Positions 3,578 to 20,848 of a stretch of 33,889 bases of DNA are shown here, piece after piece. The stretch's first letter is position 1. The number at the start of each line of letters is the position of its first letter. The position numbers and the translations under genes were made by a program. The stretch is from a virus. The notes below the pieces were generated by a model. That model was not told the DNA's origin. It worked only from the letters and a program-made list of their open reading frames with translations, and ran no database searches. Where the stretch lies: the IMG/VR virus record IMGVR_UViG_3300037585_004186, positions 1-33,889 of that record. One strand, given 5' to 3'.

Positions 3578-5377
3578 TTATATTTTGTTTTCCTCTATAA
3601 ACTTATTTAAAGCCCTAGCTTGATCATTTCTATTACCTCTAAAACTAGCTAGTTTCGCTATATGTTTTTTGCCGCCATCAGCAATTATTGTTACTGTTGC
3701 GCCTGAAACTGATTTTTCAAATTTAAAGCCCATGCCTTTGTATCTTTCTTTCCAACTATTGAGCACGTTTTTTGGATTAGCATTATAAGCAAAGTCAGCT
3801 GAGTTTTTAACTTCAAGTTCTGGAAGATCATCTCCACCATCTCCTCCATCACCTCCTTCTATTTGCGATACTTGAGCGCCAGGAACATAATTTGTTATAT
3901 AATCCGTATCTGCAATATTAGTTAATGTTGATTTTTCACCTTGGAAGTACCACTCTCCATCTTTATATTCAGTAATACCACCTCTTGGACTGTTCATTCT
4001 TTTTCCTTCTACAGGATTATTTAAAAAGTCAATATACGGCGCGTAAACTTTATTCCAAGTAGCCGTAGGAATTTGTTGTCCACCAACTATGTTTAAACCT
4101 ATACCACTTTTGTCAGGATTATCTCTTTTATATCGATCATTAGTATCTTTGTATTGTTGTTCCATTCCACTCCAAACTTGATTTGCAACTTCTGTTCTGA
4201 TTTTAGAACCCTTAACAAATCTTTGTTCTTTTAATATTACTAATCTACGTTCCCAATCTGCGCTTCCAGGTCCAAAACCAGGTTTAAAACTTCCATCCTC
4301 GTTGGTGTGGCCAAGTACTATATCTTCACTTTTTAATTTTATATAAGCTGGAGCGCTTTCACCCATTCTATTTGTAGAAAAATCATATGAAAATCCTCCA
4401 AAGTAAAAATCCTTAAATTGATCTTCGCTATAACTATCTACTTTTCCTAAAAAATTATCTTTATAAATACCAGATGCAAGATCCCAAGGTTTAGCATTAC
4501 TATTCCAAGCGTCATTAACAAGAGCTGCTCTAACTTGTTTTATATCGCTTTCAAATATATTATCTTCTTCGCCTGCATACCGTATATCTGAATATTTTGC
4601 TAATCTAATAGTATTTTTCCTGTTCGCCTCTTTCCATTCTTCCTTTGACATTGGAGCTACGTCCTCTCCGCTCTTGTCTTTCATTCCTTTAAATTCTTTT
4701 GCGTACTCTTCGTAGGTACCGGTAACGGAAACTTTTGGTGTGTAAACGTCTTTACCATTTTCATCAACACCCCAAACTCCACCTCGTTGAACCATTAGTC
4801 CGGGATTATCTACATCCCATCTTAAATTTAACCCCATTAATCCATTTGCTTGTTCTAGCGTATTGTTGACTTCCATTGGAGTAGCGGCAGGGTTTATATT
4901 TTTATTACCTGCTTGGTTGTTTTCTCCAGCAATCCCTGCTTTTACAGTCGCCATACCTTGAGCTGCCTCTGCATTTGTTTTATAAACTTCTAACTCCGCA
5001 CTCATATCAGTTAACTGCTGCATATATGAAGTCATATCTTGTCTTCCTTTTGATCTCATTTTCCCAATACCTAAAGAAGCATTTCTAGCAGCCTTATCAT
5101 ATCTTTTTTTAATCTCTAATATACTAGCTTTCAAATCCTCATTACCTTTAGGTAGCTTGTCTACTTTTAAATTTAAAAGAGATGTTTGACTATCTGATAG
5201 GTTTTTGAACCTTTGTAAGTTTTTGAAACCACTTTTGATTGATCCAATAGCCATAGTGCCTATGGTTTCATAAGCCGCTTCAACTAGTGCGTTGTGCGCT
5301 TCAGCAGCAGGATTTCTACCTGTACTTGCACGGCCAAAACCGGCCCTATACATCGCATCTGCATCTATTATACCCAT
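3578..5377 (-). CDS. Probable internal virion protein, gp15-like position
   Basis: A 599-residue protein with no enzyme motif that I recognise. Residues 1-150 are helical and charged, with an Ala/Gly-rich start; the middle (about 170-490) is mixed and rich in Tyr, Trp and Asp. A low-complexity Gly/Asp linker (GGDGGDGGDD) at about residues 506-516 separates a small C-terminal domain of roughly 80 residues, whose basic segment reads HIAKLASFRGNRNDQARALN. It starts 2 bases after the stop of the S74-type gene and ends 3 bases before the giant gene, so the three are almost certainly co-transcribed. By position and size it matches T7 gp15 (747 residues), a core protein of the ejection apparatus. 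Function is inferred from synteny only. It could also be another kind of capsid-internal protein. Confidence 0.7.
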   Translation of the reverse strand: MGIIDADAMYRAGFGRASTGRNPAAEAHNALVEAAYETIGTMAIGSIKSGFKNLQRFKNLSDSQTSLLNLKVDKLPKGNEDLKASILEIKKRYDKAARNASLGIGKMRSKGRQDMTSYMQQLTDMSAELEVYKTNAEAAQGMATVKAGIAGENNQAGNKNINPAATPMEVNNTLEQANGLMGLNLRWDVDNPGLMVQRGGVWGVDENGKDVYTPKVSVTGTYEEYAKEFKGMKDKSGEDVAPMSKEEWKEANRKNTIRLAKYSDIRYAGEEDNIFESDIKQVRAALVNDAWNSNAKPWDLASGIYKDNFLGKVDSYSEDQFKDFYFGGFSYDFSTNRMGESAPAYIKLKSEDIVLGHTNEDGSFKPGFGPGSADWERRLVILKEQRFVKGSKIRTEVANQVWSGMEQQYKDTNDRYKRDNPDKSGIGLNIVGGQQIPTATWNKVYAPYIDFLNNPVEGKRMNSPRGGITEYKDGEWYFQGEKSTLTNIADTDYITNYVPGAQVSQIEGGDGGDGGDDLPELEVKNSADFAYNANPKNVLNSWKERYKGMGFKFEKSVSGATVTIIADGGKKHIAKLASFRGNRNDQARALNKFIEENKI

Positions 5378-5379
5378 GT

Positions 5380-6621
5380 TTATAATTGTTTAAATTCTAC
5401 GTCTAGTAGATTATAATTTACCATATCATACTCTCCGTTGTTAATAACTGCGTCTTGTGGTATTTCATCTGACATTACACCTTGAAACAACCCATGACCA
5501 TGTATTGGATTTTTATACTCAAAACTATATATATTTATACCAGATATAGATTCTCCTATTTTTGTTATATTTTTCTTTAACTTACGGTCAGATTTTTTAT
5601 AATCAGCATCTTTATTTCCATGTGAAGCTTGTAATAAGCCGGCGAGAAAAGATAATTCACCTTGCTTTGCTTGAAACGCTAAGTCTCTATTATCAGCGGC
5701 TCCTTGTAATCGTATTTTTTGAGCTTCCATAGCGCCTTGGCCTGTAGCTACATCAGCGGCTTGTAGTCCACCTGCCTGAGCAAGTTGAGCTGACGAACTC
5801 AACGCGTCCGCTGCTTGCGCTCCTTGTGCTATAGATAATTGAGTAGTCATAGCGCCTTGTGCTCTAAGTTGGTCAACACTTGCTGCTCCTTGTGCTTTAG
5901 CGAGATCAAGCGCTGTAGTCCCTTGTGCTTTGGCTATATCAAGTGATGATGCTCCTTTTGCTTTAGCAAGATCAACTGCAGATGCTCCTTGTGCTTCCAT
6001 TTGTTGAATTGACATACCTGCTTGAGCAGCCAGCCTTTGATTTGCAGATTCTTGTTGACCTATATCTGTAGATATCTGTCTTGCAGATGCGGATTGTTGG
6101 TTAGCCATAGCTTGAGCAAGACCAGCAATACCAGAACTTCCGGCAGCACCTCTAAAAGTTTGCATTGTATTAGCTGCCCCTTGTTGCGACATTTCTCTTT
6201 GGAAATCAGCAGCCTGTCTATTTACAGTTAGATCTTCCATTGTATTTTCCATACCAGCAAATCTATTTTCTAATCCACTATATCGATCTTGTAATCCACC
6301 CCATTGATCTTTTACACCACCAAATTGGTTCTTTAATCCACCAAATGTGTTTGTAACGTTAGCGTATTGATTATCAAAATCAGTTTTAACACCACCAAAA
6401 TGATCCCCAATATTCATTTTATTCTCTGCAGCTGCCCATAAATTTCCCATCATTGAACCTTCTGTACCTTCTGGACCACTAAGGGTTTGAAACTGCCCAA
6501 AAGCATCGTCAATTTGTTTTTGATATTGTGGGATATTATAACTTGCGTCAGAACCTTGTCCTTTTCTAAAAGGACTTTCTCCAGGGGCTGTGTTTACTTG
6601 TTTTTTCTTCTTTTTTGTCAT
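5380..6621 (-). CDS. Coiled-coil virion protein with C-terminal S74-type chaperone segment, gp14-like position
   Basis: 413 residues in three visible parts. Residues 75-126 carry heptad repeats, with aromatics at 93, 100, 107, 114 and 121 each followed by a GG/SG/AG step. Residues 210-310 carry 11-residue repeats of the form AQGASAVDLAK, with Gly at 212, 223, 234, 245, 256 and 267, then in a shifted phase at 285, 296 and 307. Residues 344-413 begin with SDRKLKKNITKIG, the hallmark of the S74/endosialidase-type intramolecular chaperone, followed by SGINIYSFEYKN and a VMSDEIPQDAV segment. The domain is only about 70 residues, shorter than the auto-cleaving domains of tail spikes, so it may not cleave. 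The gene sits one base after the GNAT-like gene and before two large internal-protein genes, the place of T7 gp14. Membrane-channel or core assembly is an inference; a fibre role is the alternative that the S74 segment suggests. Confidence 0.78.
   Translation of the reverse strand: MTKKKKKQVNTAPGESPFRKGQGSDASYNIPQYQKQIDDAFGQFQTLSGPEGTEGSMMGNLWAAAENKMNIGDHFGGVKTDFDNQYANVTNTFGGLKNQFGGVKDQWGGLQDRYSGLENRFAGMENTMEDLTVNRQAADFQREMSQQGAANTMQTFRGAAGSSGIAGLAQAMANQQSASARQISTDIGQQESANQRLAAQAGMSIQQMEAQGASAVDLAKAKGASSLDIAKAQGTTALDLAKAQGAASVDQLRAQGAMTTQLSIAQGAQAADALSSSAQLAQAGGLQAADVATGQGAMEAQKIRLQGAADNRDLAFQAKQGELSFLAGLLQASHGNKDADYKKSDRKLKKNITKIGESISGINIYSFEYKNPIHGHGLFQGVMSDEIPQDAVINNGEYDMVNYNLLDVEFKQL
5692..5994 (-). 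repeat. Hendecad (11-residue) coding repeat
   Basis: About nine imperfect 33-base units inside the S74-type gene encode AQGxxxxDLAK-like 11-mers. The conserved Gly recurs exactly every 11 residues six times (212 to 267), then three more times (285, 296, 307) after an 18-residue step, that is 11+7. Eleven-residue periodicity is typical of slightly right-handed coiled coils. The repeat is at the protein level; DNA units have diverged. Confidence 0.85.
6244..6345 (-). repeat. Heptad coding repeat (aromatic-GG units)
   Basis: Five consecutive 21-base units encode FGGLKNQ, FGGVKDQ, WGGLQDR, YSGLENR and FAGMEN. The aromatic residue recurs every seven residues at 93-121. Two looser units precede it at residues 75 and 82. 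This suggests a coiled-coil or amphipathic helical rod distinct from the downstream hendecad region. Confidence 0.85.
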
Positions 6622-6622
6622 T

Positions 6623-7084
6623 TTAATTTGTATTTTTAGGTAAATTTGTTGGGGTGCAATCTAACTTAACCTTGTTACAAGGAAGAGTTACAACATGATA
6701 TTTTTCTTTAGAAACCTCTACCCCAAGCATCTCACATTTTGATAATAAACCTTTTTCTTTTGTTAAAAACCAAAAATCTTCATATCCTAGATTATTAGCT
6801 GTTTTTATAGAACTAGCCATTAGTCTTAAAAGAATATCTTGTCTGTCTTCTTCTCTATATTCTGGATCACCAATCATATAGTCACAATAACCCATTTTAG
6901 AGTTTGTTAAGTATAAATAAACACACATTACTGGTTTTCCATCTTTACACGCCATCAACCCATGTAATCCGTTTTCCGGGAGTAAATTTCTTTTTGGAGG
7001 ATTTTTCCCAGTTGCATCTTTCCACCACTTACTAATAAACCTATAATCTTCTTCTTCTATAGGTCGTACTATAATATTTTCCAT
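6623..7084 (-). CDS. GNAT-fold protein, gp13-like position
   Basis: 153 residues. The N-terminus IVRPIEEEDYRFISKWW has the usual GNAT beta1-alpha1 pattern, followed by a substrate-strand region (GLMACKDGKPVMCVYLYL), a central strand and helix (residues 64-100) and a C-terminal strand pair. The position of the acetyl-CoA loop (canonical R/QxxGxG/A) reads YREEDRQDI at about residues 76-84, so the glycines are missing and coenzyme binding is doubtful. The gene lies between tail nozzle/structural genes and the gp14-like gene, exactly where T7 carries gp13, a small protein that I regard as resembling a GNAT fold. A virion-assembly role is therefore as likely as acetyl transfer. The stop lies one base before the next ATG; 49 bases separate it from the gene before. 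Confidence 0.7.
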   Translation of the reverse strand: MENIIVRPIEEEDYRFISKWWKDATGKNPPKRNLLPENGLHGLMACKDGKPVMCVYLYLTNSKMGYCDYMIGDPEYREEDRQDILLRLMASSIKTANNLGYEDFWFLTKEKGLLSKCEMLGVEVSKEKYHVVTLPCNKVKLDCTPTNLPKNTN

Positions 7085-7133
7085 ATAACTATATTTAATT
7101 TAAATGTACTTATATAGTCACACTTTTTGCCTT

Positions 7134-7463
7134 TTATTTACTACTAAGTACTACTTCTGAACCAATAGAGAATAAATTAGCTTTTTTAGTAGAATTATTT
7201 CTAAACTTTACATCTGCATAATATCCTTTTAAACTGGTTTTGTTTGCTATAATACTTTTAGCGAACAAAAAGTAACCACCGTCAGCGTTTAAACCAGTAA
7301 CATCACCATTAACTACAATGTAATCGCCCCCAAGTTGTGTAATCATACCACACGACCTTGGTTGAGAAGTAATCCCAAAAACTGGTGGGGAAGTGTAGTA
7401 CATTGTATCTCCAAGTTGTACAGAAGAGTTTATAGGATAATCAAAATCTATTCTTGTTGGCAT
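7134..7463 (-). CDS. Small beta-rich virion-associated protein
   Basis: 109 residues, starting at ATG 7463 (MPTRIDFDYPINSS) 12 bases after the preceding gene. The sequence is beta-rich with short hydrophobic strands. Its C-terminal half, GYYADVKFRNNSTKKANLF, resembles small conserved proteins that I associate with the tail modules of marine phages, though I cannot run a search. There are no catalytic motifs, signal peptide or membrane segment. Lying between a beta-rich structural protein and the internal-protein genes, it is best regarded as a minor tail, fibre or decoration component. Function is not established. Confidence 0.6.
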   Translation of the reverse strand: MPTRIDFDYPINSSVQLGDTMYYTSPPVFGITSQPRSCGMITQLGGDYIVVNGDVTGLNADGGYFLFAKSIIANKTSLKGYYADVKFRNNSTKKANLFSIGSEVVLSSK

Positions 7464-7475
7464 AATTATTTTTTT

Positions 7476-8717
7476 TTATGTAGCTGCTCCTACTGATAAA
7501 AGTTCATCTAAATTAAAGTATATTGTTTTGTTTGCAGATGGATAGCCGTTTATAGAAATACCACTAATAATATTAATGATTTTAAGTGATCCTTCAAATC
7601 GAAGTATAGTTCCTTTTTCTAAGGTTTGAGCTAATTCAACAACTACTTTACCATCGTTATCTAAAGTACCATCACTTGGATCTGGACAATCTGGAGTAAC
7701 AACTGTCACTCTATTGGTCGCACTATTATTCACCCCAACTCCAGAATACGTTACAACTTCCCCACCAGCAATACCGTGGGTATCAGTCAAAGTAACATCT
7801 GTACTACTACTAACATCAGCTCTAACCGTTTTAGTTAAAGCGGTTGCTATAATACGAGGACTATTCCCAACCCCACCTGTAACCGGAGTAAAAGCCAACG
7901 TAACACCAATAGCGCTTTGAATATCATTTATTCCAAGAGTTTTTACAGTCAAAGTTACTCCATCATTAATAGTTTGAACAGAATCTAGTGTTAATATTTT
8001 GTTTTCAGTATCTATTGCTATTATTCTTGGCGTTCCAGATAAACCAGTTCCAGACCACAAATATGATCCTTCAACAATATCCGTTAAACTATTAACAGTA
8101 ACCTCTGCTTCACCGGCTGGTTGACTTACAACATCAGTTGTTGTTTTTATATAAAGTACTTCTTCGTTTAATTCTTTATAACCATCTTTTAATATTAAAC
8201 CAAAACCACCAGCGTCAGTAGATGCATTCGTTATAGTCCAATCAAAATTTACACTACTAGCATCAGTAAGAGCACCGGTTGAAGTTGTAGTTGGTGTTGT
8301 TTGATAGTTATCAGGATTGGCAAGACTAGCCGCTTGAAATGTTATTGTACTATTATCGGTTTGTTTTTCTATAGTTTTACTGATTACAGTTTTATTGTTA
8401 GAACGCGCTACCTCTGTTCCTTCAAAAGCTATCAATTTTACTATATACGTCCCACCGCTAGAAGGAAACGCAACGTCCCTCACATACTTCTTATTTGACA
8501 TTGTTACTACTAAATTGTTATCTGTACTAACATGTCCAGATGTAAAAGTATTTAAGGTAAAATCATAATACTTAGTCATAACGCTAGAACTACTTGGATT
8601 ATTTATTATCTGTAAAGTAAACTTAGCTCCAATTTCTCCGTTAACAGTAATTCTCCTAGAGGTAACAGTCGCAGGCATTTCTGAAGTGTCAATTAATAAA
8701 TTATTTATTTTTTTCAC
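7476..8717 (-). CDS. Beta-rich structural protein, possible fibre or tail appendage
   Basis: 413 residues, starting with GTG at 8717-8715; no ATG lies between the preceding gene's stop and this codon, so GTG is the natural start, and the next residues are KKINNLLIDTSEM. The protein is rich in Thr, Ser, Val and Gly with repeated short strands, for example TVNSLTDIVEGSYLWSG and ADVSSSTDVTLTDTHG, and it looks like tandem immunoglobulin-like or jelly-roll beta domains. It begins 17 bases after the giant nozzle gene and shares its Ser/Thr/Asn-rich style. A tail-fibre or adhesin role is plausible from composition and position, but I recognise no named family. Confidence 0.62.
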   Translation of the reverse strand: MKKINNLLIDTSEMPATVTSRRITVNGEIGAKFTLQIINNPSSSSVMTKYYDFTLNTFTSGHVSTDNNLVVTMSNKKYVRDVAFPSSGGTYIVKLIAFEGTEVARSNNKTVISKTIEKQTDNSTITFQAASLANPDNYQTTPTTTSTGALTDASSVNFDWTITNASTDAGGFGLILKDGYKELNEEVLYIKTTTDVVSQPAGEAEVTVNSLTDIVEGSYLWSGTGLSGTPRIIAIDTENKILTLDSVQTINDGVTLTVKTLGINDIQSAIGVTLAFTPVTGGVGNSPRIIATALTKTVRADVSSSTDVTLTDTHGIAGGEVVTYSGVGVNNSATNRVTVVTPDCPDPSDGTLDNDGKVVVELAQTLEKGTILRFEGSLKIINIISGISINGYPSANKTIYFNLDELLSVGAAT

Positions 8718-8734
8718 TATTTTATATTGTTTAA

Positions 8735-11700
8735 TTAAAGTGTAGTTATATTAGAACTTTCACCAATACCCTGTACACTAAAACGACTTGTGTCTAACTC
8801 AACATTGTTTGTAAATTCATTTAAAGTATTTTTTCCTCTTATATAATTAAACCATTTTCCTTCTTTTTCGATAAATTCTTTTACATTACCTATATCTAGA
8901 TTTGTTTTAACGTCTTCACAATACCAACCTTGTATATTACTACTCAAACTCCAAGCAGCGGCATTGTTAGGTGTAATTCTATTTGCTGATGGCTTCAATA
9001 TTTGAGCTTGCGTTCCCTCGTAGTTTAAAGTATTAAATGTTTTTACCGTTGAGGGTTCATTGTTTAAAATAACTCTAACGCTAGAACCTTGAGTGCTATG
9101 AACCCCGTAAAACATATTATAATTCTCGGCGTTTTTAACCGAAGAAGAAACTAAATAACTGGCAGATCCATCAGCCGGGAAGTATTCTTTTAGTGGAACG
9201 TAGTGCTGCCACAAACCACCTTTGTCTATAGTAAAATATTTTTTAGATAAACTAAGACCACTTTCTGGAATAAAACTTTTAAAACTAGTCCAACCGTTCA
9301 CGTCTTCACTAAATGTAACGGTTTTTTCATCAAACATACTATCTCCATTTTCATCTTCTATAATATCGTAAACCCTAGTCATTCTAATATTATCTATCCA
9401 ACCATTTACATCTTCTAAAGGATTAGCCAACATGTATGTGTCATCTACTTGTATAACAAACGTTTCTTTTAACTCTGTAGCGTAATTTGCTCCGGCAGGA
9501 TTTTCCCAATCCCATATTTCATCTCCTATTTCAACTGTTGTTTTGTAAAAAGATGGTGTTAAAGGACCTATATCTGGTATTCTAAAACCATACCCTTCGC
9601 TATTGAAGTAATATATTTTTACCATTCCCTCTGTTATACCGTGGTTAAATTCTATTTCAAACTTTTCAAATCTGTCTATATTTCTATTAACAAATTGATT
9701 CGCGTTAAGGAAGGTTGTTAAAGTCAAACCCGAAGACGGATCAAAAAGTGGGCAATCATTAAACTCTATCAGTCCATTTACCCCGGCATTACTATTCCAA
9801 ATTATATATGGAGCTATAGAGTTATCCCAACCATCAAAACTCCAAGAACCAGCTGAACCACCTTGGAATATTAAAGTTTGATCTTTTAAAGAAATATTAC
9901 TAATAGCACCTTCTAAATTCAAAGGAGCTCCAGTAACATCACCAGCTATAAACATAATTAAATTAGCTAGACCTGGGTGATTCGTTAAATTAGCGCCACT
10001 TGAAGATGTTGATTGTATATTAGCAGTTCCAGAATAATCTACCCACGTAGCCCCTGCATCTGTACTGTGGTTTATATACCAAGGGGTAGTTACTTCATCT
10101 CCATTTGTTGTAAAAAATATTTCGTAATCACCTGTATCTTGTATATCACTAAAATATAATCCTTCGTATGAATCATTACCGGATCCTAAATTACTTTCGT
10201 TATTATTCACATAACCTCTAATCTTACCCACAAAACTTGTTGTATCTGGATTTGGGTTGACAGTAAATTTTAATATCCAACCATATTCACCTGGATGTGG
10301 CGGTGGGTATGAAGGAACTTGATAACTTGAGTTTCCAAATCGCTGAAACCATTGTAAATTATTATCTGCTAGAGCGCTCCAACATAACGCTCCACTAATA
10401 TTATCCCAATATATTTTTCTTTTTGCAAATGAGTGAGTTAAAATATCCGTAGTATGCTCCCAACTCTTAGCGCTACCACCAATAACACCTTCTGTAAGAC
10501 CATAATCTAATCTTTTAACAATAACAGTTTCAAGTTTTGCGGTATTTTTAAAACCAAAAAAACGAAGTTTGAATTGATTATCGTTTTGTGTGGCTATAGG
10601 CGCGGTAAACCGTATAGAGTCACTAGCTGCTTGGAATATTGCTCTTATAACTCTTCTACCATCACCAGAACCATCAGCGTTACCATATTCCGTCCTATAA
10701 TGTTGCTGTAAGTGTACGTGAACTTGTTTAGGTGATAGTGTTGCATCTCCTGAATAATTCCCAATTCCTTCTGGATGTATTTGTACGCCAGTAGTTCCAT
10801 CCCAAGTTTGCGATCCAACTTGAACCACGTGACAACTACCATAATCACCCGCTGTTCCAGCTAAACCTGAGGTAAAAGAACTCCCATCATCCCAAGTATC
10901 ATCGAATTCAAGATCAACTAAATACCAAGCGTCTTGTTGCCATGGATCAGTCTGTATATCAAATTCAAGATCAAGTGCGCTATTTCCTGCTTGTGCGCTA
11001 TTATCAGAGCGTATGAGTAAATATTGAGAAGGTACACTTTGTTCCCCTGAAGTAATAGTAACCGGGTTTTCATCATTACCGCTTGTATAAGTATAGTTAG
11101 GGTTGCCAAGCGTACTAATGCTATCACCAGCAGCACCAGAAACAGTGTTATCTAAGTTCCAAGAGTTAATATTCCAATTACTTGGAGTTGTATAAGTAAT
11201 TGCAACATTCGGTGGTAGTGCAGGATCTACGTTTTGTCCGTTTCCTGTTTGAGAAATTCCTCCAAATGAAGGGCCATACCCACCAGCACCCTGGGTACCT
11301 TGTAAACTAAAATGACTTCCAGCGGTACCAAGAGGACCATATGCAGTACTTATTGTCCAATCAAAAGCTTGGTGGTGAATTTCCGCCCAAGCCGGTACAG
11401 GAAAAGGCGGAACAGCGCGAACTTGTTTTATCTCTGAAACCGCTTCTTCGTATGGTGTCCATCCTCCCGCCGCTATGTACGGAGTAAAATTTTCATAAAG
11501 AGTTGGTCCAGTATAAGTGACAGCTTGTTGTGTAACCGCAGCTTGCGCTGGTGTTATATCACCACCTGGACCATGTATGCCAAAACCTTTAACAATTTTA
11601 ACACTACAAATCTCCCACAATGGGTATTTATTATTACATAAACCATCACCATAAACATCTTCATGGGGATCTGCGCCTAAAATTACTATTGGTGCTTGGG

Positions 11701-14700
11701 TATAAACTCTTACTCTAAGATCATCTATCACTTTTACTTCATGAGGCAAATCACTCCAACCAGTCGTATTACTATAAGTAGCCCCAATCCTATTACCATT
11801 AGCATCTTGAGTATTAGGATCTTTAAATTTAAATCTAGCTATTAATTTAATTGTTTTTCTTTCTATCGGAGTGGCTGTTAACCCGCTGGTTGCCATCATT
11901 TCTGCAGTACCACTCGCCCAGAAGTTTGATTGTCGAGTTGATGGATATTGTACCGTAGCAAATTGTTCATATTTATCATTGGATATACCATAATCGCACG
12001 TACCAGTAGTATCATCAGCATATTTCATGCTGTTGGCTTGGGATGTGTGATATCCATAAGATCCAAAAACATTATTGTCTGACCAAGCTGTATTATAAGG
12101 AGTAAGCTGATTGTTTGCTGAAGATAAATAAGGATCCAAACCCATTAGCTTAGCAGAGGAGATATCACTCGTCCCATCCATAAGCTTAATTGAGGGTTTT
12201 ATAGAATTTCTTCCTCTAGCTCCCGTTCCACCAAAATTCTCCGCTTGGAAAGTTTGATTACTAAAATCCGTATATAACGCGATTTCAATCGCAATGTGTA
12301 ACTCATCCCCATTATAAAAAGTATTATGATGATCATTACCAGGCGTGCTAGGAGCTTGGTTATAATCCCACATTAATTCACCTTCATGATTAGTTGGGTT
12401 AAGCAGTGTTGAGTTTGGATCTTTTCCAACATCTTTAAACTCAACAAAACTACCGTGTCGAGCTCTATCAAAAAGAATATTTCCGTATCCAGACCCTGCA
12501 GCATTAGAATAAGCTCCTCCTCCATATCCATAAATATATCGACCAGCAGATCTAGTAATAGTATTTGATGTAAGTTTTGTGCCATTTGTATTGTAAGTGG
12601 CTAAGTATGCACATTTTGCGACCGCTGCACCACCATTATCAGAAGCACCTGCTAATGTTTGGTTAGTATAGCTGGACGCTGCATCAATAGCGCTATGATT
12701 AGTAGGGTTATTTTCATTAACATAACCGAACAACCCACTACTAGCAGTAATAATATATCTTTTAATTTCAACGTATCTATCGTCGTTATCAGGAACTAAA
12801 GTACGATTTGGACCAAACAAGTTTGGATACGATAAAGCAGCGCCGTATGTTCCACCTGCTGGCGGAGTGCTTACGCCCCCATTTAAGTAAAGTACTAAAA
12901 ACTCTCCACCATCTGGATATGTACCCACCGAATCATCCCACGCCCACGCTGCAGATCCTTGGTTATTATCTAAATTCCCATCCCAACTATCAAAATCAGC
13001 TATATTACTCATTGCTAGAAACGCATCTTGAGCAGCCTGTAGTTCATAACCCTCCTCGCTGTATGAAGAAGTAGTAGTTGTAGCAGGGGCAGTTAGGGCA
13101 GTGGCAGATACCGAGGTATAACCAGTAATTGTAAGTCCAGTTTCTGGAGCGCCAGCAGGATTAGTACCACCGTAACTATTAAGAGGATTAAGTTGTGTGT
13201 TTGTCACTAGAATTGGGGTGCTTAATTCCGCTTCTTGCATTTGTATTGAATAAGATCCTAATACTCCATTAAGTGTTGTAAGACCAGCCGCAGTAGTACC
13301 AGTAATAGGATTTCCTTGCGCATCATATCCCGCTAGAACTGTTGCTAAATTTCCTGCTTGGGGATTTCTTCCCGGAACATGTTGTTGTAGCGATCCAGTA
13401 GGAATTTCAGCATGCATAGTAACGTCTACACTAACTTCTAAATTTCTATTCTGAGGTCCCCAAGCAAAAGGTTGTAGAACGCTTGTATTGTCTTCTAAAA
13501 CATTTGCTCTTTCGTAACCATATAGTAAGTCTACACCGTTGTTAACATCTGGATTTGCAACAAAGTTTAATAAAGTTTTAAGTTCACTGGTAGATTCTTG
13601 TCCTAAATTAAAAGAAGTATTGTATATAATATTTTCTCCAAAAGCGTGTGAAAGGCTTATGTTGTAATCTTGTTTGTAACTATCATAAGTACCTATTAAA
13701 GCGGTATAATTAGGTAAGTTATCTCTAAACCAATCGTGCATTCCAGCGGTAGAAATAGGTGTTAAACCATCTTTAGATAATCTTAGCACCGCGCCTCTTT
13801 GTTTATCTGTAAAATAAGCTCTATAAGATTCTGACGCAAACGACTCTGGATTTGTAGATATACCATAATCTCCAACGAATGGATTTACATCACCTAGAAC
13901 AAGGTTAGTAGATACTAATTGTGGATTTCCATCTGCATTGTATAACGCATCTTTATTCGACGTAATACTTACAACTCTATCTTCACAAAAGGCTATTAAA
14001 CTAATTCTTCTTTGAAATAATTTTTGTATACTACCGTATGTAGGGTTTAAATCTTTAGTGATTTTTTCAGCCATGATAAACTGATTTAAATCATTGACTC
14101 CAGAATTTGAATTATACAATCCAGAATATATTAAACCATGTGATCTACGCTCTTCTTCGTAAGTTTTTTGTGTTGTTGACGATGCTTTAACTCCGTTACC
14201 AATATACATTTCGTTAAAATCATCTTTAATCCTATTAGATTCTAATCCATTATTAAAAGAAAAACAATTATAGTAAGTTAACCCAACACGTATATTGTCG
14301 CCAATGTCTTCTCTAAAAAGAAACTCTGTTTTGTATCCAACTGTATTTACGTCTCCACTGAGAACTTGCTCTTCAGCTTGTGCTATTGTAAAACCACCAT
14401 CTTCTCTAATAAATTTAAAAGATGAACCAGAATAATCTGCTTCTAACGAGCCTTCAACAGCTAATAAAGGAAATCCAGGTTCAAATATAGCTATTGTACC
14501 ATCTTTCCATTCTTTTAAATAAGAAGATCCAGCAACAGGTCCATCTAACACCTCTACCCTACACCCAATAGGTGCAAATAATTCATTTGTAGTATCGTTA
14601 AGTTTTACAGGTATATTATTACTAGCCTCGTAATATATATCTAAATCTACTTGTTGTTTTTTGGGACTAATCTCCCATATAGCTGGGAATTTATTTAATT

Positions 14701-17700
14701 CAGAAAGTAAAACTGACTGAACTTGTTCTACAAACTCTATATCAGCAAAATCACCATTAGTTTTGTCAGCAGACATAGCGGAATCTAAAGGATTATGCCC
14801 ACCCACTGTTGGGTTTTTATCTAATTCAATTATATAACAAAGTCTTCTATTACTAGCTTTACCAAAATCTACTATTTTGCTTTTTAGCAATGTATGTTCA
14901 TCACTTCCTCCATTTTCACCATCTACATCTAAAGTATTTAACCATTCTAATGCCACTTCCTCAACACTTATGTAAACATCATCTTGATTTGCTCTGGAAA
15001 TATTATAACCATTATAACCAATAGAATTTGCCGTATCATATCTATTATATGGTTTTCTCCAAGAAGTGTGATTGTATAACTTTTTTACAACTACTTTTTT
15101 AATAGTGTAAATTTCATCATTAGAATCAGTTGAAAATTTAAACTGTGCTCCAGTGTGGAGGTTTCTTATAAAATCTCGTATTTTATTCTCAGCATCTCCT
15201 TGCGCATTAAATGTTGGGTCCCACTGTCTTTCGTGTAATTCTCTATAATCTAAATCGTAACCAAATCCAACACCAGGACCTGGTGTTTCTGGTAACCAAG
15301 CGCCATTTGTTAAATCATTATTACCTTCTAAACAAAGTGATCTATGCTCGTTAGTCGGATCGCTATCTGATCCAAATACCTGCTTATTTGTCGTACCAGT
15401 AAAATGTCCACCTCCCCATATTCCTTGTAAATTGTTTCCAATAGAATCGTCACCAAATAATTCAAAAGTATTAGGAAAAGCATCAGGTACTAAATTGCGA
15501 CCTGGAGCAAAAAACGATAAATGCATAAAGTGTCTATCTATATCATCATCATCATTAGCATATGTATTAGTATCAACTCCAACGCCTTGTTCTGTTGAGT
15601 TTCCAGTTATTCCACTAAACCATCTTCTAGGACCCACGCTATGATCACTAGTGGTAGTGACTATTCCTTCTAAACCGTTTATATGGTTGTCTACAATATC
15701 ATTTGAATCTAAAGAAACAAATCTTTTTACACTTTGTTCACCACCAACCCATCCAGTAATTCTTTGCCCTTCAGTATCAGTATCGTAAAATTTATATTCA
15801 TCATTTTCAACTACTAAAGGAGATATGTCTATTATTCCATTTTTTAATGCTGTGTGAAATTTTCCTGTTACACCAACTCCAGGTACTTCGATTTCTTTGT
15901 CTGGAATATAGTTTTCGCTATCAATAAAATCTGTCAACCAAGTTTTAAGAGGAGGATAACTCCAACTGGAGTGAGTGTTTTTTCCCGCCTTAGTTCTTCC
16001 AGCCCAAGTTACACAACAATATTTAGCATAATCACTAGCTTCGCTTTGCCCAGCCACCATGTGCATTGCGTCTATAAAAAACGTAGGTTTATGGTTAACT
16101 AGTATACCATCCCAAGGTGCGGCATAATCAGTGACGCCAAGTTTGCCATCATTATTAGCGGCATCTCCAGCAACATCACCAACGTTATTGTTGTTGTTAA
16201 TATGGTGTATTGAATTTGTACCAGTAACAGTGCCAAGCCATCCATTATAATTAAATAAACCATATCCAGCTGATGATAGAATATTTATATTAGCCACAGT
16301 GGCTATATCGTCTTGCCAGTACCAACTTTTATTTTTTGCTGATACAATATAATTATCTTCAACGTTTACATCAGAACCTTCTTCAATAAAGTTTGTAACT
16401 TGATTTTTAGATATTTTAACAAAAAATGAACCAGAAAAATTTTCATCATCTTTAAGCTCTTTTCTTTCTACTTGTATTACTAGATCTGCATGAAGATTAG
16501 TTAAAGAGGTATCGCTCGAGTCTCCGCTTGCGTGGGCTATATCAGCATCTATTTTGGTTATTGGCGTAGATAATTTTAGTACATAAGAACCGCCACTAGT
16601 ACTTTTTCTACCACCAGTTATTCTATATTTTTTAGAAGAAACACCAAATCCAGATCCTGTTCCTAGTTTTCTCCAAGAAATATATAAATCTTTAGGATCA
16701 AAAACATCTTCATCATGTCCCATTCCACTTTCTAAAGGCGTGTTTTTGTTAGCTTGCTCCCACTCTGACCAGTTCATAGTTAAAGTGTCTATTTCTTTAT
16801 TTGGACGGGTTGCAGAAACTGAAAAAAGAGTGTTTAAACCATCACCAGTGTCTGACGCGGTTGAACCCGAACTAGTATTTGAAACCGTACCATAATTAAC
16901 TAATCGATATTTTATAGCGTCAGGAGCTTCGTTTTTAATATCAATAACTTTAAACTTATTTTCAAAATCCACTTGTTCTTCCCCAACTCCAATTTTCTTT
17001 TTTAAAACTATATAATCTTCTTCTGTAATTTTATTTCTATCAGACGAAGGAAATGAAATCCATAAATGCCCGTCTTCATTATCAAGCTCATAAGTAGCTT
17101 TAGAAACCCAAGCTCTTTCCATTGCTAGATTGTAATATGGATTAGAAGTTTCTTTTACAAAAAACTTTAATGAGTCAACCCATTCTGGAAAATTAGCAAC
17201 GACACTTGGGTTTAATTGAAGATTTCTACTAGCATTTTTTAAACCATCACTTTTTTGCCAAGGAATATTTATTGCTCCTTTATCAGATGTGAATACTGGA
17301 GTTTCTCTACCATACTTGTCACAGTATACAACTCCTACTTGATAGTTTCTTTGAGATTTTACAGAAGGTAAACCTTGTGTAGTAAAACTTCCAATCAAAC
17401 TATTTCTATCACTATAAGCAACTTGAACTTCAGGTTTTAATAAACCTATATCATAATTTTGTAAGTAATTACCATAAACAACTCTATTACCAGTTACCTC
17501 TTGCGCTAAAGCTCTTCTTGGAACATTATCCCAAGGTCTAAGTAATTGATTTGCTGGTAATGCCGCATAAATATTTTCTGTTGTTACAATATATTTTCCT
17601 TTATTATAACTTCCTTCAGCAGCGTATCCAAGCGGTTCATTTTGTAGTGTGGCATTGACTGTTTCACCTATTCCCAAATCGTAACTAAGTCCCTCGTGAT

Positions 17701-19087
17701 TGCTAGAAGCGTGCCACGCACTGTCAACATGTCTTATGGTTCCTACAGAATATACAACACTAGAGTTTTCTTGCTTATATAATATATCGATCTCTACGAC
17801 ATCTTCTGGTGTTTGTTCTGTAATAAAATCGGTTAATTCTATAGAGTGAATAGAATTCTCCATAGCTTTGTTATACGGTTCTTCTGTGGTATAAGCGTTA
17901 TCTTTATTATAAAATACGTTTCCAGTAGAAGTACTATTTATATCTTTTGGGAATTTAGCATTAAATACAGGTTCAGTAAATGGAGCGAATGTAGAAAATT
18001 CGCCATCTCTATATTTATACCTATATGAAAATCTTGGGAAGGTTGTTTCGAATAAGTTAGGAATATTATTTGTACTTTCCGAAGGTTGAGCGTGATTTAT
18101 TTTTACCGCAGGGGCTTTTAAAGGTTTTGGTTTTATAATAGTAATATGGCGCTCTTCTATATCTAGCGTTATATTATTACCAAAAATAATATCTCCTTCG
18201 TGCCAATCTTCTTCAGCTGGGATTTGTCCAACGATAGTAGCAACACCATTATTAGGCTGTAAAGGATCGTCTTCATCTACACCCATGTCAGATAGTCTAA
18301 CATGCATTCCACTATCATTATTCCAAATAGTTACTTCTTTTAAGCCTATATACTCTCCATTTCTATAATGCCTAATGTTAGTAATTAAGGGAGGTTGGAT
18401 TGATGCTCCGAATTCGTCTTCGTTATAAGGAATTTCTTGTTGTAATAATTTTTCTAATTGCTTTTTTTCATACCAAAAATAAAGTCCTTTTTTTGGTTTT
18501 TCAAGAGTAAAGTCGTGTTCATCCGCTTCACCTTTTTGACTAAAAAGCTCTAGTGTCATACCGTTAAAACTACCTCGCTCAAATTCTAGCTGTGTATGAC
18601 TATCAAAATTAAGCGTACCTTCTTTACACTCTTCTATATTTATTTTCTTTGGCTCGCTATCGTTATCAGTCCAAAGTAATAAATCATCAATTATATTTAT
18701 TCCAGTAATTATTTCACCAGCAAATTTTAAAACAGCTTTTGAGTTCCAAGCGTTTTTGTCAACAATCACCGGTAATGTTTCTCCTGTTTGAGGATTGTGT
18801 TCTAAAATTGCGTCTTTTTCATAACTACTAACAAACCAATATAATTTATTTGATTTTTCGTCAGCTATACTTCCAACGCATTTAAAACCAAAAGGAATAC
18901 CGGTAAAAGTATCAGTAACATCAACCCTAGCATTACCTAATACATTTTGCAAAGTACCAACGCTTGAGCCTTCAGAAGTTGATACCTCCACGTTCATCGC
19001 ATCTCTATACTGTCCTTTTGGCATTAATCTCTCATCGAGATCTTTGTTCATCTTCCCCCCAGTAAAATTGTTCTTAATTTCCGGCAT
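8735..19087 (-). CDS. Giant tail nozzle / stabilization protein (T7 gp12-like position) with large insert
   Basis: 3450 residues in one frame, 10.4 kb. The N-terminus (residues 8-55: TGGKMNKDLDERLMPKGQYRDAMN, then VSTSEGSSVGTLQNVLGN) is the classic opening of the phage tail stabilization/nozzle family. Further family-like blocks follow at about 352-380 (YRYKYRDGEFSTFAPF), 518-545 (NVPRRALAQEVTGNRVVYGN), 576-603 (NYQVGVVYCDKYGRETPVF), 1467-1496 (AIWEISPKKQQVDLDIYYEA), 1590-1635 (YYNCFSFNNGLESNRIKDDF) and 1684-1785. The C-terminus (about 3250-3450: TVTFSEDVNGWTSFKSFIPE to EFIEKEGKWFNYIRG) also looks conserved. Between about 1950 and 3240 lies a Gly/Ser/Asn/Trp-rich region resembling several carbohydrate-binding beta modules. 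The gene follows the adaptor by 3 bases. It likely forms the lower tail tube and carries host-binding domains. Nozzle identity is well supported by motif and order; the insert's function is inferred. Confidence 0.85.
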   Translation of the reverse strand: MPEIKNNFTGGKMNKDLDERLMPKGQYRDAMNVEVSTSEGSSVGTLQNVLGNARVDVTDTFTGIPFGFKCVGSIADEKSNKLYWFVSSYEKDAILEHNPQTGETLPVIVDKNAWNSKAVLKFAGEIITGINIIDDLLLWTDNDSEPKKINIEECKEGTLNFDSHTQLEFERGSFNGMTLELFSQKGEADEHDFTLEKPKKGLYFWYEKKQLEKLLQQEIPYNEDEFGASIQPPLITNIRHYRNGEYIGLKEVTIWNNDSGMHVRLSDMGVDEDDPLQPNNGVATIVGQIPAEEDWHEGDIIFGNNITLDIEERHITIIKPKPLKAPAVKINHAQPSESTNNIPNLFETTFPRFSYRYKYRDGEFSTFAPFTEPVFNAKFPKDINSTSTGNVFYNKDNAYTTEEPYNKAMENSIHSIELTDFITEQTPEDVVEIDILYKQENSSVVYSVGTIRHVDSAWHASSNHEGLSYDLGIGETVNATLQNEPLGYAAEGSYNKGKYIVTTENIYAALPANQLLRPWDNVPRRALAQEVTGNRVVYGNYLQNYDIGLLKPEVQVAYSDRNSLIGSFTTQGLPSVKSQRNYQVGVVYCDKYGRETPVFTSDKGAINIPWQKSDGLKNASRNLQLNPSVVANFPEWVDSLKFFVKETSNPYYNLAMERAWVSKATYELDNEDGHLWISFPSSDRNKITEEDYIVLKKKIGVGEEQVDFENKFKVIDIKNEAPDAIKYRLVNYGTVSNTSSGSTASDTGDGLNTLFSVSATRPNKEIDTLTMNWSEWEQANKNTPLESGMGHDEDVFDPKDLYISWRKLGTGSGFGVSSKKYRITGGRKSTSGGSYVLKLSTPITKIDADIAHASGDSSDTSLTNLHADLVIQVERKELKDDENFSGSFFVKISKNQVTNFIEEGSDVNVEDNYIVSAKNKSWYWQDDIATVANINILSSAGYGLFNYNGWLGTVTGTNSIHHINNNNNVGDVAGDAANNDGKLGVTDYAAPWDGILVNHKPTFFIDAMHMVAGQSEASDYAKYCCVTWAGRTKAGKNTHSSWSYPPLKTWLTDFIDSENYIPDKEIEVPGVGVTGKFHTALKNGIIDISPLVVENDEYKFYDTDTEGQRITGWVGGEQSVKRFVSLDSNDIVDNHINGLEGIVTTTSDHSVGPRRWFSGITGNSTEQGVGVDTNTYANDDDDIDRHFMHLSFFAPGRNLVPDAFPNTFELFGDDSIGNNLQGIWGGGHFTGTTNKQVFGSDSDPTNEHRSLCLEGNNDLTNGAWLPETPGPGVGFGYDLDYRELHERQWDPTFNAQGDAENKIRDFIRNLHTGAQFKFSTDSNDEIYTIKKVVVKKLYNHTSWRKPYNRYDTANSIGYNGYNISRANQDDVYISVEEVALEWLNTLDVDGENGGSDEHTLLKSKIVDFGKASNRRLCYIIELDKNPTVGGHNPLDSAMSADKTNGDFADIEFVEQVQSVLLSELNKFPAIWEISPKKQQVDLDIYYEASNNIPVKLNDTTNELFAPIGCRVEVLDGPVAGSSYLKEWKDGTIAIFEPGFPLLAVEGSLEADYSGSSFKFIREDGGFTIAQAEEQVLSGDVNTVGYKTEFLFREDIGDNIRVGLTYYNCFSFNNGLESNRIKDDFNEMYIGNGVKASSTTQKTYEEERRSHGLIYSGLYNSNSGVNDLNQFIMAEKITKDLNPTYGSIQKLFQRRISLIAFCEDRVVSITSNKDALYNADGNPQLVSTNLVLGDVNPFVGDYGISTNPESFASESYRAYFTDKQRGAVLRLSKDGLTPISTAGMHDWFRDNLPNYTALIGTYDSYKQDYNISLSHAFGENIIYNTSFNLGQESTSELKTLLNFVANPDVNNGVDLLYGYERANVLEDNTSVLQPFAWGPQNRNLEVSVDVTMHAEIPTGSLQQHVPGRNPQAGNLATVLAGYDAQGNPITGTTAAGLTTLNGVLGSYSIQMQEAELSTPILVTNTQLNPLNSYGGTNPAGAPETGLTITGYTSVSATALTAPATTTTSSYSEEGYELQAAQDAFLAMSNIADFDSWDGNLDNNQGSAAWAWDDSVGTYPDGGEFLVLYLNGGVSTPPAGGTYGAALSYPNLFGPNRTLVPDNDDRYVEIKRYIITASSGLFGYVNENNPTNHSAIDAASSYTNQTLAGASDNGGAAVAKCAYLATYNTNGTKLTSNTITRSAGRYIYGYGGGAYSNAAGSGYGNILFDRARHGSFVEFKDVGKDPNSTLLNPTNHEGELMWDYNQAPSTPGNDHHNTFYNGDELHIAIEIALYTDFSNQTFQAENFGGTGARGRNSIKPSIKLMDGTSDISSAKLMGLDPYLSSANNQLTPYNTAWSDNNVFGSYGYHTSQANSMKYADDTTGTCDYGISNDKYEQFATVQYPSTRQSNFWASGTAEMMATSGLTATPIERKTIKLIARFKFKDPNTQDANGNRIGATYSNTTGWSDLPHEVKVIDDLRVRVYTQAPIVILGADPHEDVYGDGLCNNKYPLWEICSVKIVKGFGIHGPGGDITPAQAAVTQQAVTYTGPTLYENFTPYIAAGGWTPYEEAVSEIKQVRAVPPFPVPAWAEIHHQAFDWTISTAYGPLGTAGSHFSLQGTQGAGGYGPSFGGISQTGNGQNVDPALPPNVAITYTTPSNWNINSWNLDNTVSGAAGDSISTLGNPNYTYTSGNDENPVTITSGEQSVPSQYLLIRSDNSAQAGNSALDLEFDIQTDPWQQDAWYLVDLEFDDTWDDGSSFTSGLAGTAGDYGSCHVVQVGSQTWDGTTGVQIHPEGIGNYSGDATLSPKQVHVHLQQHYRTEYGNADGSGDGRRVIRAIFQAASDSIRFTAPIATQNDNQFKLRFFGFKNTAKLETVIVKRLDYGLTEGVIGGSAKSWEHTTDILTHSFAKRKIYWDNISGALCWSALADNNLQWFQRFGNSSYQVPSYPPPHPGEYGWILKFTVNPNPDTTSFVGKIRGYVNNNESNLGSGNDSYEGLYFSDIQDTGDYEIFFTTNGDEVTTPWYINHSTDAGATWVDYSGTANIQSTSSSGANLTNHPGLANLIMFIAGDVTGAPLNLEGAISNISLKDQTLIFQGGSAGSWSFDGWDNSIAPYIIWNSNAGVNGLIEFNDCPLFDPSSGLTLTTFLNANQFVNRNIDRFEKFEIEFNHGITEGMVKIYYFNSEGYGFRIPDIGPLTPSFYKTTVEIGDEIWDWENPAGANYATELKETFVIQVDDTYMLANPLEDVNGWIDNIRMTRVYDIIEDENGDSMFDEKTVTFSEDVNGWTSFKSFIPESGLSLSKKYFTIDKGGLWQHYVPLKEYFPADGSASYLVSSSVKNAENYNMFYGVHSTQGSSVRVILNNEPSTVKTFNTLNYEGTQAQILKPSANRITPNNAAAWSLSSNIQGWYCEDVKTNLDIGNVKEFIEKEGKWFNYIRGKNTLNEFTNNVELDTSRFSVQGIGESSNITTL

Positions 19088-19090
19088 GAA

Positions 19091-20848
19091 TTAGTGTTTT
19101 ATTTGCTTAGATTTGCCTCTTAATGTTTGAGTTAATTCTTCTAATTTAATATTTGATAATCTTAATTTTGCTTTTCTTATTGCAGCGAATTTTTCTTTTG
19201 CTAATCTAGGAACTAATTGCTGACCGTAAGAAGAAGTTGATAATACCGCATGAGCAATTGATTTGTACATAGCTTCTTCTGCAAATTTATGAACTTGCAT
19301 TTCCGCATCTGTTCCAATACCATCACTTATATAATCTAGTATTACAGTTTTTCCAGAAATATTAGAACTAAAATGTATTCTACCTAATCTTTGGTCTATA
19401 TAATATGATCCATTTACATTAGAGTGTTCTGGATCTAATCCATATCGCTCACCACTAGCGCTATAACAATCACACGAGCAACTATTATCTCCACATGTAT
19501 CACTACCACATCCTTTATAACTGTTCCAAGTAGACGATTCTTTACCGTTACCAATTGGAGGCACTAAAGTTCTATTGAGTGATAAAGGATAAAAACCACT
19601 AGTAATAGAAATGTTATCTATACTAGCTACGGTTGGAGCTGTTCCACTAATGTGTATATATCCTAACCCATCAGGATTACCACCCAAATCCTCGAATTTC
19701 TTAATATTACCATCGCCAATAGCGTTAGAATGAATATCTTGTAAAGTGTCTGGATGATAAGCCGTAATGGCATCATAGTAATCGTTTAATGTATCGTTTA
19801 CCCCATGATTAGGCTCTACACCTTGGATGTTAAGATCCATAAAAACTACTATCACAAGATAAACACTGTTTAGCGCCGAAACATCAATATTTACAGCTGA
19901 TTTTGTTGAAGCATTGCTTGCCCCTACAACGCTATTACCATCACCAACATCAGAACTATTCCACTCTACGTAGCTAGCGCCCCCACTAGTATCAATCACC
20001 CCACTTTTACTATAAGAAGCTGCTGTTAAATTATAAATATTTGGATCAAGATTGGTAGATTCACCTGGTCCAGTTACATAATCACCTTCTCCAAACATAC
20101 TTGCTGTAGTTATTGCGGGGTCTGTGCTAATACCACATCTTAAAACGGTGGTACCTTGTGCAAGGGTTTCAGACGATCCCGTTGCTATTACGTCAATATA
20201 ATCAATTCCTGATACATCTACGGCTTGGTATACTGTAGTTAGATATCCATTATTCCATGGACCATGCCCAGAGCTTGTTGAGTTTTGGAATGTTAATTTT
20301 CCGTTTTCAACTCTAGCCCCAGCATGTGCTCTGTTAGTGTCAGCAAGCATTAATGGATCGTGGTATACACCACGTTTTGAAATTGTGTTCCAGGGAGCTG
20401 CTAGATCATTGTCAAAACCACCTGCTATCTCCAATAATTCGTAACTTTCTGGAAAAAAATAATCTCCGTTTTCTTCTTGTGCTATTTGGAAAGGATTAGA
20501 CGTGTTACTTGTGGGATATAAAGGGTATTTTATACCGCAGTTATCTACCCAAGAAACTTTCGTATAATTAACGTAATCATGTGGAAGTTTCATAACCAAA
20601 GAAGGTGGAAGATCTATTTGTTGCGATTTTACAGATTTAAAAGTATCAAATGATAGTTCTTGTAAAGCCCTCATTGCGTGAAAAGAGACATCTGCTTTTT
20701 TTAACTTTGGTATTAATTTGTTTTCTCCAACATACGCTATTTGAAATTGTGTTATAATATTTTCTAAAGAAGTAAATTGATAATTTCCAAGATCATTACT
20801 GTTGTAATAATCTTTATGTGAAGCTTTGTATGTAGTTAAATATCCCAT
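19091..20848 (-). CDS. Head-tail adaptor-like protein with central beta insert and Cys cluster
   Basis: 585 residues. Residues 1-110 (ALQELSFDTFKSVKSQQIDL, then PPSLVMKLPHDYVNYTKVSW) and about 483-585 (RLGRIHFSSNISGKTVILDY, IGTDAEMQVHKFAEEAMYKS, ending in basic helices) look like the two halves of an adaptor of the T7 gp11 type that docks below the portal. Between them lies an insert of roughly 290 residues (about 150-440) with jelly-roll-like strands such as VSGIDYIDVIATGSS. A cysteine cluster follows, with Cys at 447, 452, 457, 459 and 461, dense enough for metal binding or disulfides. The gene starts 4 bases after the 253-residue protein and ends 3 bases before the nozzle, matching gp11-gp12 order. 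The adaptor role is inferred from order and terminal motifs. Confidence 0.68.
   Translation of the reverse strand: MGYLTTYKASHKDYYNSNDLGNYQFTSLENIITQFQIAYVGENKLIPKLKKADVSFHAMRALQELSFDTFKSVKSQQIDLPPSLVMKLPHDYVNYTKVSWVDNCGIKYPLYPTSNTSNPFQIAQEENGDYFFPESYELLEIAGGFDNDLAAPWNTISKRGVYHDPLMLADTNRAHAGARVENGKLTFQNSTSSGHGPWNNGYLTTVYQAVDVSGIDYIDVIATGSSETLAQGTTVLRCGISTDPAITTASMFGEGDYVTGPGESTNLDPNIYNLTAASYSKSGVIDTSGGASYVEWNSSDVGDGNSVVGASNASTKSAVNIDVSALNSVYLVIVVFMDLNIQGVEPNHGVNDTLNDYYDAITAYHPDTLQDIHSNAIGDGNIKKFEDLGGNPDGLGYIHISGTAPTVASIDNISITSGFYPLSLNRTLVPPIGNGKESSTWNSYKGCGSDTCGDNSCSCDCYSASGERYGLDPEHSNVNGSYYIDQRLGRIHFSSNISGKTVILDYISDGIGTDAEMQVHKFAEEAMYKSIAHAVLSTSSYGQQLVPRLAKEKFAAIRKAKLRLSNIKLEELTQTLRGKSKQIKH

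Follow-up and report, generated by a model that had tools for sequence, protein, structure and literature searches.

The tail muzzle of crassvirus-type phages has been described for crAss001, in which gp44 forms a hexamer at the tail end and comprises a ring-joining domain, a seven-bladed propeller, two immunoglobulin-like (Ig) domains and a 'crass' domain (PMC10172136). The authors of that study proposed that the muzzle gates ejection and that its distal part touches the cell surface, reported that muzzle length varies through insertions in the crass and Ig2 regions, and termed phi13:2 an outgroup (PMC10172136). In siphophages, carbohydrate-binding modules (CBMs) inserted in Dit tail proteins, known as evolved Dit (evoDit), promote adsorption (PMC10688798). 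Host recognition and opening by crassvirus-type phages are poorly known, with the muzzle proposed as gatekeeper, and our literature search returned no receptor-binding part assigned to a crassvirus muzzle. Here we evaluated a virus record of 33,889 bases (IMGVR_UViG_3300037585_004186, hereafter the window), whose minus strand carries a tailed-phage structural operon, and focus on its muzzle gene of 3450 amino acids (aa), in which ~1440 residues are inserted at the predicted turn of one beta-hairpin. We consider it likely that this insert is a chain of cell-surface adhesion modules carried in cis on the muzzle, with distal domains that probably bind glycans.

The muzzle is encoded as a single unbroken open reading frame (ORF) and was divided into the following parts, with the evidence for each in brackets:

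8735..19087, minus strand: crassvirus-type tail muzzle, 3450 aa (ORF, PHROG 14478, crAss_MUZ_C, homologues)
16928..19087, minus strand: residues 1-720, conserved N-terminal part (hidden Markov model (HMM) match to short homologues)
14303..16927, minus strand: residues 721-1595, an enlarged counterpart of the Ig2/crass domain (spacing between conserved blocks M and N)
13643..14302, minus strand: residues 1596-1815, the propeller block of highest conservation, which closes with the first hairpin strand, SYKQDYNISLS (identity; ratio of nonsynonymous to synonymous substitution rates, dN/dS)
9326..13642, minus strand: residues ~1816-3254, inserted module array (absent in short homologues)
8738..9325, minus strand: residues 3255-3450, return strand, then the C-terminal part of the propeller with crAss_MUZ_C (Pfam; alignment with phi38:1, elemo and crAss001)

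The original prediction, made from the sequence alone, had described a nozzle-type N-terminus with family-like blocks to about residue 1785 and a conserved closing region after residue 3250, and both descriptions agree with what profile searches returned. The blocks reach ~1815 (PHROG 14478, virion structural protein, E=1e-125), with a mean identity among long homologues of 69-86% over residues 1601-1800, while the closing region has 62% mean identity among these homologues at 3251-3300 and a match to Pfam crAss_MUZ_C at residues 3322-3418 (33.1 bits, above the curated cut-off of 27) that is shared by all 23 members of alignment A3. The protein is homologous to phi38:1 gp97, phi13:2 gp120 and structural proteins of elemo and Gundel (HMM matches in the N-terminal part, E 1e-27 to 1e-44), and profile HMM comparison matched crAss001 gp44 in the C-terminal part only. 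Gene order supplies a further likeness, as the large terminase (TerL), portal, structural genes, ring protein and then muzzle follow one another in the window and in phi38:1. By homology to crAss001 gp44, and with domain names taken from PMC10172136, residues 1-720 would represent the ring-joining and first propeller/Ig part. Residues ~721-1595 are moderately conserved among long homologues, returned no lectin family in a Pfam scan, and account for an M-to-N block spacing of 875 aa, as compared with 223-442 aa in phi38:1, phi13:2, elemo and Gundel. Because this crass region is enlarged in the same proteins, which suggests a generally bigger muzzle, the insert could in principle be intrinsic tail structure that lengthens the tail tip and not a binding device; its long loops, its very low conservation and the unrelated module types found at the same hairpin are unlike a load-bearing tube, and we regard this explanation as improbable.

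The boundaries of the insert were drawn from alignment with muzzles of ordinary length. It occupies residues ~1816-3254 (DNA ~9326-13642), such that the outgoing strand, ...SYKQDYNISLS, ends at ~1813 and the return strand, KTVTFSEDVNGWTSF (beginning KTVTFSED), runs from 3255. Aligned to a profile from long homologues, short muzzles jump at this site from residue 1070 to 1079 (phi38:1), 1241 to 1241 (elemo) or 1150 to 1156 (Gundel), where the window passes from ~1815 to 3255; in phi38:1 the same two strands are linked by a short turn, and the corresponding turn of crAss001 gp44 lies near residue 1188. On these alignments the insertion site is the predicted turn of one beta-hairpin, normally 0-40 residues long, in the part forming the last propeller blades, and by homology the two flanking stretches would be strands of one blade. 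The earlier proposal of a big segment inserted at a single point and absent from shorter homologues is borne out by these jumps of 0-9 residues, whereas the span it gave, 1950-3240, was right at its end and started ~130 residues too late. Its description of the segment as rich in Gly, Ser, Asn and Trp applies to Gly (10.3% versus 6.8% in the core) and slightly to Trp but not to Ser or Asn, which are not enriched; Thr and Ala are enriched as well, and charged residues fall to 16% from 23% in the core.

We evaluated what relatives carry at this site. A first set comprised 27 related viral contigs found with the whole muzzle protein (relatives are given by L numbers where needed), in which uncut single-ORF muzzle genes encode 2776-3518 residues, one muzzle (L025) lies in two genes and two (L004, L018) extend beyond the contig end. 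A second scan with the conserved block added the best 80 further loci kept by similarity, so that the counts that follow are biased towards the window's clade. Block-to-block distances were two-peaked, being mostly 0-40 residues, with a few at 83-258, one at 506 and a large group at 957-1433. About two thirds of the scored relatives had no more than 258 aa at the hairpin, and at least 500 aa were present in 32 of the 96 that had both flanks. On a tree of the conserved parts (FastTree, 96 scored rows), the presence of an insert of at least 500 residues changed at least six times. Close relatives illustrate the empty state: L036 and L040 are 70-75% identical to the window in the block just before the hairpin, and their hairpins are empty, with turns such as 'NITLTKHAEDATSETLSFSED'; empty hairpins are also readable in L059 and L110. 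Because many relatives keep the same flanks with 0-40 residues between them, the insert is not a chance feature of one record. Relatives with a short hairpin (L058, L060, L067, L069-L071, L080, L081, L083) often have C-terminal muzzle extensions of 700-1100 aa, some with fn3 domains. Such an extension was scored in 24/96 and together with the insert in 0/96, with ~8 expected if the two were independent. This suggests that insert and extension alternate, a pattern we do not count as independent evidence because there are only about six insert changes across the tree.

The insert diverges much faster than the protein that carries it. Between the window and L003, identity was 90%, 79% and 96% in three pre-insert parts and 76% in the C-terminal block, as compared with 54% in the insert, and within the latter it fell to 17-33% over residues ~2016-2515 (cores 76-96%). 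Across several close pairs, dN/dS was 0.33-0.53 in the insert and 0.02-0.05 in the adjacent propeller block (0.024 for residues 1596-1815 against L003), such that the insert evolves ~10-20 times faster by this measure. In the pair L017/L027, dS was equal in insert and propeller block (0.13), and the faster divergence therefore reflects selection, not age. L005 and L006, near-identical muzzle genes from two samples, differ at 17 bases that all fall within 222 bases of the insert (residues 2640-2714), a cluster that is probably a recombination tract. We also considered a diversity-generating retroelement and set it aside, as this sole tight cluster of single-nucleotide differences is not adenine-specific; no reverse transcriptase search was made.

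Structure models of residues 2545-3450 and 1795-2560 (AlphaFold, with Foldseek for structural neighbours) divided the insert into parts of differing confidence, given here by predicted local distance difference test (pLDDT) score:

11408..12775, minus strand: residues ~2105-2560, hypervariable beta-rich part (identity to L003; low-confidence predicted strands)
10496..11026, minus strand: residues ~2688-2864, predicted beta-sandwich 1 (pLDDT mostly 70-90)
9881..10459, minus strand: residues ~2877-3069, predicted beta-sandwich 2 (pLDDT mostly 60-87)
9365..9868, minus strand: residues ~3074-3241, predicted beta-sandwich 3 (pLDDT mostly 65-88)

Foldseek neighbours of the distal half included a tandem CBM22 (E=2e-3) as well as CBM29-2 and CBM4-2 (each prob 0.99, template modelling (TM) score 0.52 on target). 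Most were proteins with tandem beta-sandwich binding domains, and the viral ones were tail, host-specificity and F5/8-type proteins. The C-terminal block of the same model was predicted with low confidence, which is expected if this block needs the rest of the propeller. The carbohydrate-binding-like beta modules that had been proposed for the whole segment are thus retained for the distal half and at the level of fold, the middle part having a mean pLDDT of 42. As CBM-like domains often accompany glycan-active enzymes, and several of the Foldseek neighbours are such multi-domain enzymes, the insert might instead carry a depolymerase or hydrolase that clears surface polysaccharide; a catalytic family appeared in none of the scanned inserts and the modelled domains are beta-sandwiches with neither barrel nor beta-helix, making an enzyme quite unlikely. 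Three ideas on the origin of the modules were rejected: internal duplication (profile self-comparison gave no convincing repeat, best probability 15%), common origin with an insert in the neighbouring ring protein (the profiles show no similarity), and movement of insert modules to other genes (all BLAST matches at E<=1e-4 were muzzle genes).

The same hairpin holds other contents elsewhere, and it is also where muzzle genes are split. In the cultured phage phi13:2 it carries ~500 residues, among them a Big_9/cadherin-like domain (E=4e-21), and the next gene, gp121, opens with the return strand ('MPKTITYSEKNKGWTSF'). In L120 the hairpin is occupied by an fn3-like module (6e-5, slightly below the Pfam threshold). 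A split like that of phi13:2 recurs in L120-L124 and L127 (genome records of Myroides, Flavobacterium and others). The muzzle of the complete genome MW202828 is likewise split, into a 1551-aa N part and a 268-aa C part with a 184-aa gene between them. A gene of ~580 residues lies between the halves in L121 and L124. In L127 (3928-7442), two glycosyltransferase genes (PF11397, E=1e-75; PF04488, E=1e-30) occupy this place and adjoin Thr-Pro repeat linkers, in which the insert of this muzzle is rich; their products might glycosylate virion linkers. In L025 it is the window-type insert itself that is shared out over two genes. From these contents and splits at one hairpin, we conclude that the hairpin is a recurrent insertion and fission site. 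As for annotation, public records label the split halves as unrelated 'structural protein' genes (L130, MW202828.1, 15633-21653; L031, phi13:2, 5010-10580), and the 184-aa gene between the halves of MW202828 is annotated 'putative glycosidase'; splitting at the hairpin explains why some genomes have the C-terminal muzzle part annotated as though it were an unrelated gene.

These separate halves in L025 and the phi13:2 group might also raise the suspicion that the long gene of the window was wrongly fused from two or misassembled. A continuous ORF with the same flanks is present in more than 20 independent contigs, drawn from different samples, and in short homologues one protein holds both flanks; these continuous homologues refute an artefact, to which we assign next to no probability.

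The C-terminal end of the window muzzle is itself reduced, and two genes downstream bear on this:

7476..8717, minus strand: 413-aa protein, encoded between the muzzle and its detached domain (conserved across most relatives)
7134..7463, minus strand: 109-aa gene, detached muzzle C-terminal domain (similarity to elemo and phi13:2; PHROG 18548 positions 166-239)

The 109-aa protein is similar to the last ~100 aa of the elemo muzzle (E=2e-7) and to those of phi13:2 gp121 (3e-7), and by this similarity the window muzzle has lost its last ~100 residues to the separate gene at 7134-7463. The 413-aa protein was examined as a spilled-out piece of the insert and rejected, as it belongs to a conserved family that relatives have whether or not they carry an insert.

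We propose that the muzzle would be a hexameric complex closing the tip of a crassvirus-type short tail, with an adhesion chain built into it. The chain would exit from the C-terminal part of the propeller at one beta-hairpin turn and re-enter it at that turn, so that the propeller can fold as usual; it probably hangs outside the tail tip in six copies per virion, where its distal domains (predicted CBM-like beta-sandwiches) probably bind surface glycans of a Bacteroidota host. Such binding would add to that of fibres or help position the muzzle for opening. The proposal builds on what was observed: an insert at a defined site, sites that are empty in relatives, fast divergence, alternative modules and split genes. 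The hexamer and propeller geometry are carried over from crAss001 by analogy, and we further infer that the insert may be exposed outwards, bind glycans and have a role in triggering ejection. More tentatively, and with somewhat less conviction than we would need to call it probable, the muzzle-propeller hairpin may serve crassvirus-type phages generally as a site where modules dock and the gene splits. Unrelated adhesion modules or whole genes would be placed there between adjacent strands of a tail-gating propeller, such that receptor binding by a module and gate opening could be linked mechanically.

Several observations weigh against an adhesion chain with glycan-binding ends. L040 lacks the insert and has the same neighbouring genes, and the insert is accordingly not essential for a tail. 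One clade member, L019, has both a muzzle insert of 1248 aa and, on the same contig, a gene for a separate protein of at least 1393 aa that matches PHROG tail-fibre families; the idea that the insert replaces fibres, with binding domains on the tail tube instead of on separate fibres, is therefore not supported. Structurally, whole-chain Foldseek TM scores were only 0.1-0.2, and because the fold is also very common, the matches support the fold class only, the predicted CBM assignment drawing on single-domain matches to it. The model of residues 1795-2560 (mean pLDDT as above) has strands predicted at low confidence and had no significant structural match in Foldseek. Pfam and PHROG scans of the muzzle and the scanned homologous inserts returned no carbohydrate-binding or lectin family, and the insert had no sequence match in the PDB.

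Part of this evidence would also fit a decoration of the tail exterior that is structural, protective or non-specifically adhesive (e.g., to marine polysaccharide particles) and no determinant of host recognition, given that close relatives dispense with the insert, that separate fibres exist, and that the neighbouring ring protein has a comparable insert, as if the whole outside of the tail were decorated. Variability is, however, centred in one part, residues ~2016-2515, as is typical under recognition pressure, and we judge mere decoration to be unlikely, if the most serious of the competing explanations. An adhesion chain thus remains our preferred reading of the insert.

Turning to the surrounding genes, three genes of the structural operon complete the feature list:

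27793-30009, minus strand: large terminase, TerL (structural operon)
25367-27787, minus strand: portal (structural operon), followed by further structural genes
19091-20848, minus strand: ring-type tail protein, 585 aa, adjoining the muzzle (PHROG 13977 in two stretches)

Residues ~150-440 of the ring protein are likewise an insert (~290 aa), making it a second tail protein with decoration; its total of 585 aa compares with 269-286 aa in phi38:1, phi13:2, elemo and Gundel. At this site the majority of relatives have 160-304 aa, as compared with <10 in phi38:1, phi13:2 and elemo. Further along the window, 5380-6621 (minus strand) encodes a 413-aa Ala/Gln-rich repeat protein whose last stretch resembles a Peptidase_S74 chaperone (E=7.5e-4, marginally under the cut-off), an end that is unusual for a likely ejection-type virion protein. 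The closest annotated TerL is that of MW202828 (64%), the complete genome of an uncultured, unclassified podovirus, followed by cultured flavobacterial podoviruses (elemo 45%), and not that of crAss001.

The host is probably a member of Bacteroidota, since cultured relatives infect Flavobacteriia, related muzzle copies lie mostly in Bacteroidota genome records, and in one clade member (L132, 6961-8991, minus strand) a 676-aa gene product combines a signal-like N-terminus with a sorting domain for type 9 secretion (PF18962, E=1e-10), features that suggest a phage-encoded surface protein of a Bacteroidota host. In L132 (9617-10654, minus strand) and L135 (2309-3388), genes of 345-359 aa with signal-peptide-like starts adjoin structural genes, and their products are without any family match. 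Isolate genomes of Myroides, Flavobacterium, Aquimarina and Tenacibaculum also have muzzle genes of this family, on large contigs (L120, L122, L126, L128), which suggests prophages or integrated relatives.

The hairpin turn looks like the docking site of swappable parts for host recognition, and because empty, filled and split hairpins exist naturally, including in cultured phages (phi38:1 empty; phi13:2 filled and split), the question is directly testable. Compared with known systems, the muzzles of Cellulophaga phi38:1 (gp97), elemo and Gundel belong to the same family and gene order as the window and have the hairpin without an insert; they keep, as part of the muzzle, the ~100-aa C-terminal domain that the window encodes separately. 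Cellulophaga phi13:2 gp120/gp121 (Baltivirus) has its ~500-aa insert at the same hairpin and differs in module type and in its two-piece muzzle. crAss001 gp44 (PDB 7qok, 7qol, 8ckb; PMC10172136) is of the same family by its conserved parts, is alignable at the hairpin (~residue 1188), and represents a type for which insertion-based length variation was already reported; those published insertions lie in the crass and Ig2 regions, while that of the window lies at a hairpin of the propeller part, has ~1440 aa, and occupies a site that also splits the gene. The nearest working analogue is evoDit, with which the window shares a conserved structural tail protein with an internal module insertion absent in classical homologues, the binding role in the muzzle being our proposal. 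evoDit differs in its carrier (a Dit ring versus the muzzle/nozzle), its Gram-positive hosts and its roughly ten times shorter inserts (e.g., 168 aa), and the window muzzle is not an evoDit member, its carrier protein being the muzzle and not Dit. The kind of arrangement, binding modules inserted in a structural tail protein, is therefore already known, and what is unusual here is its size, its place at a propeller hairpin of a gating protein, and the repeated gene splitting there.

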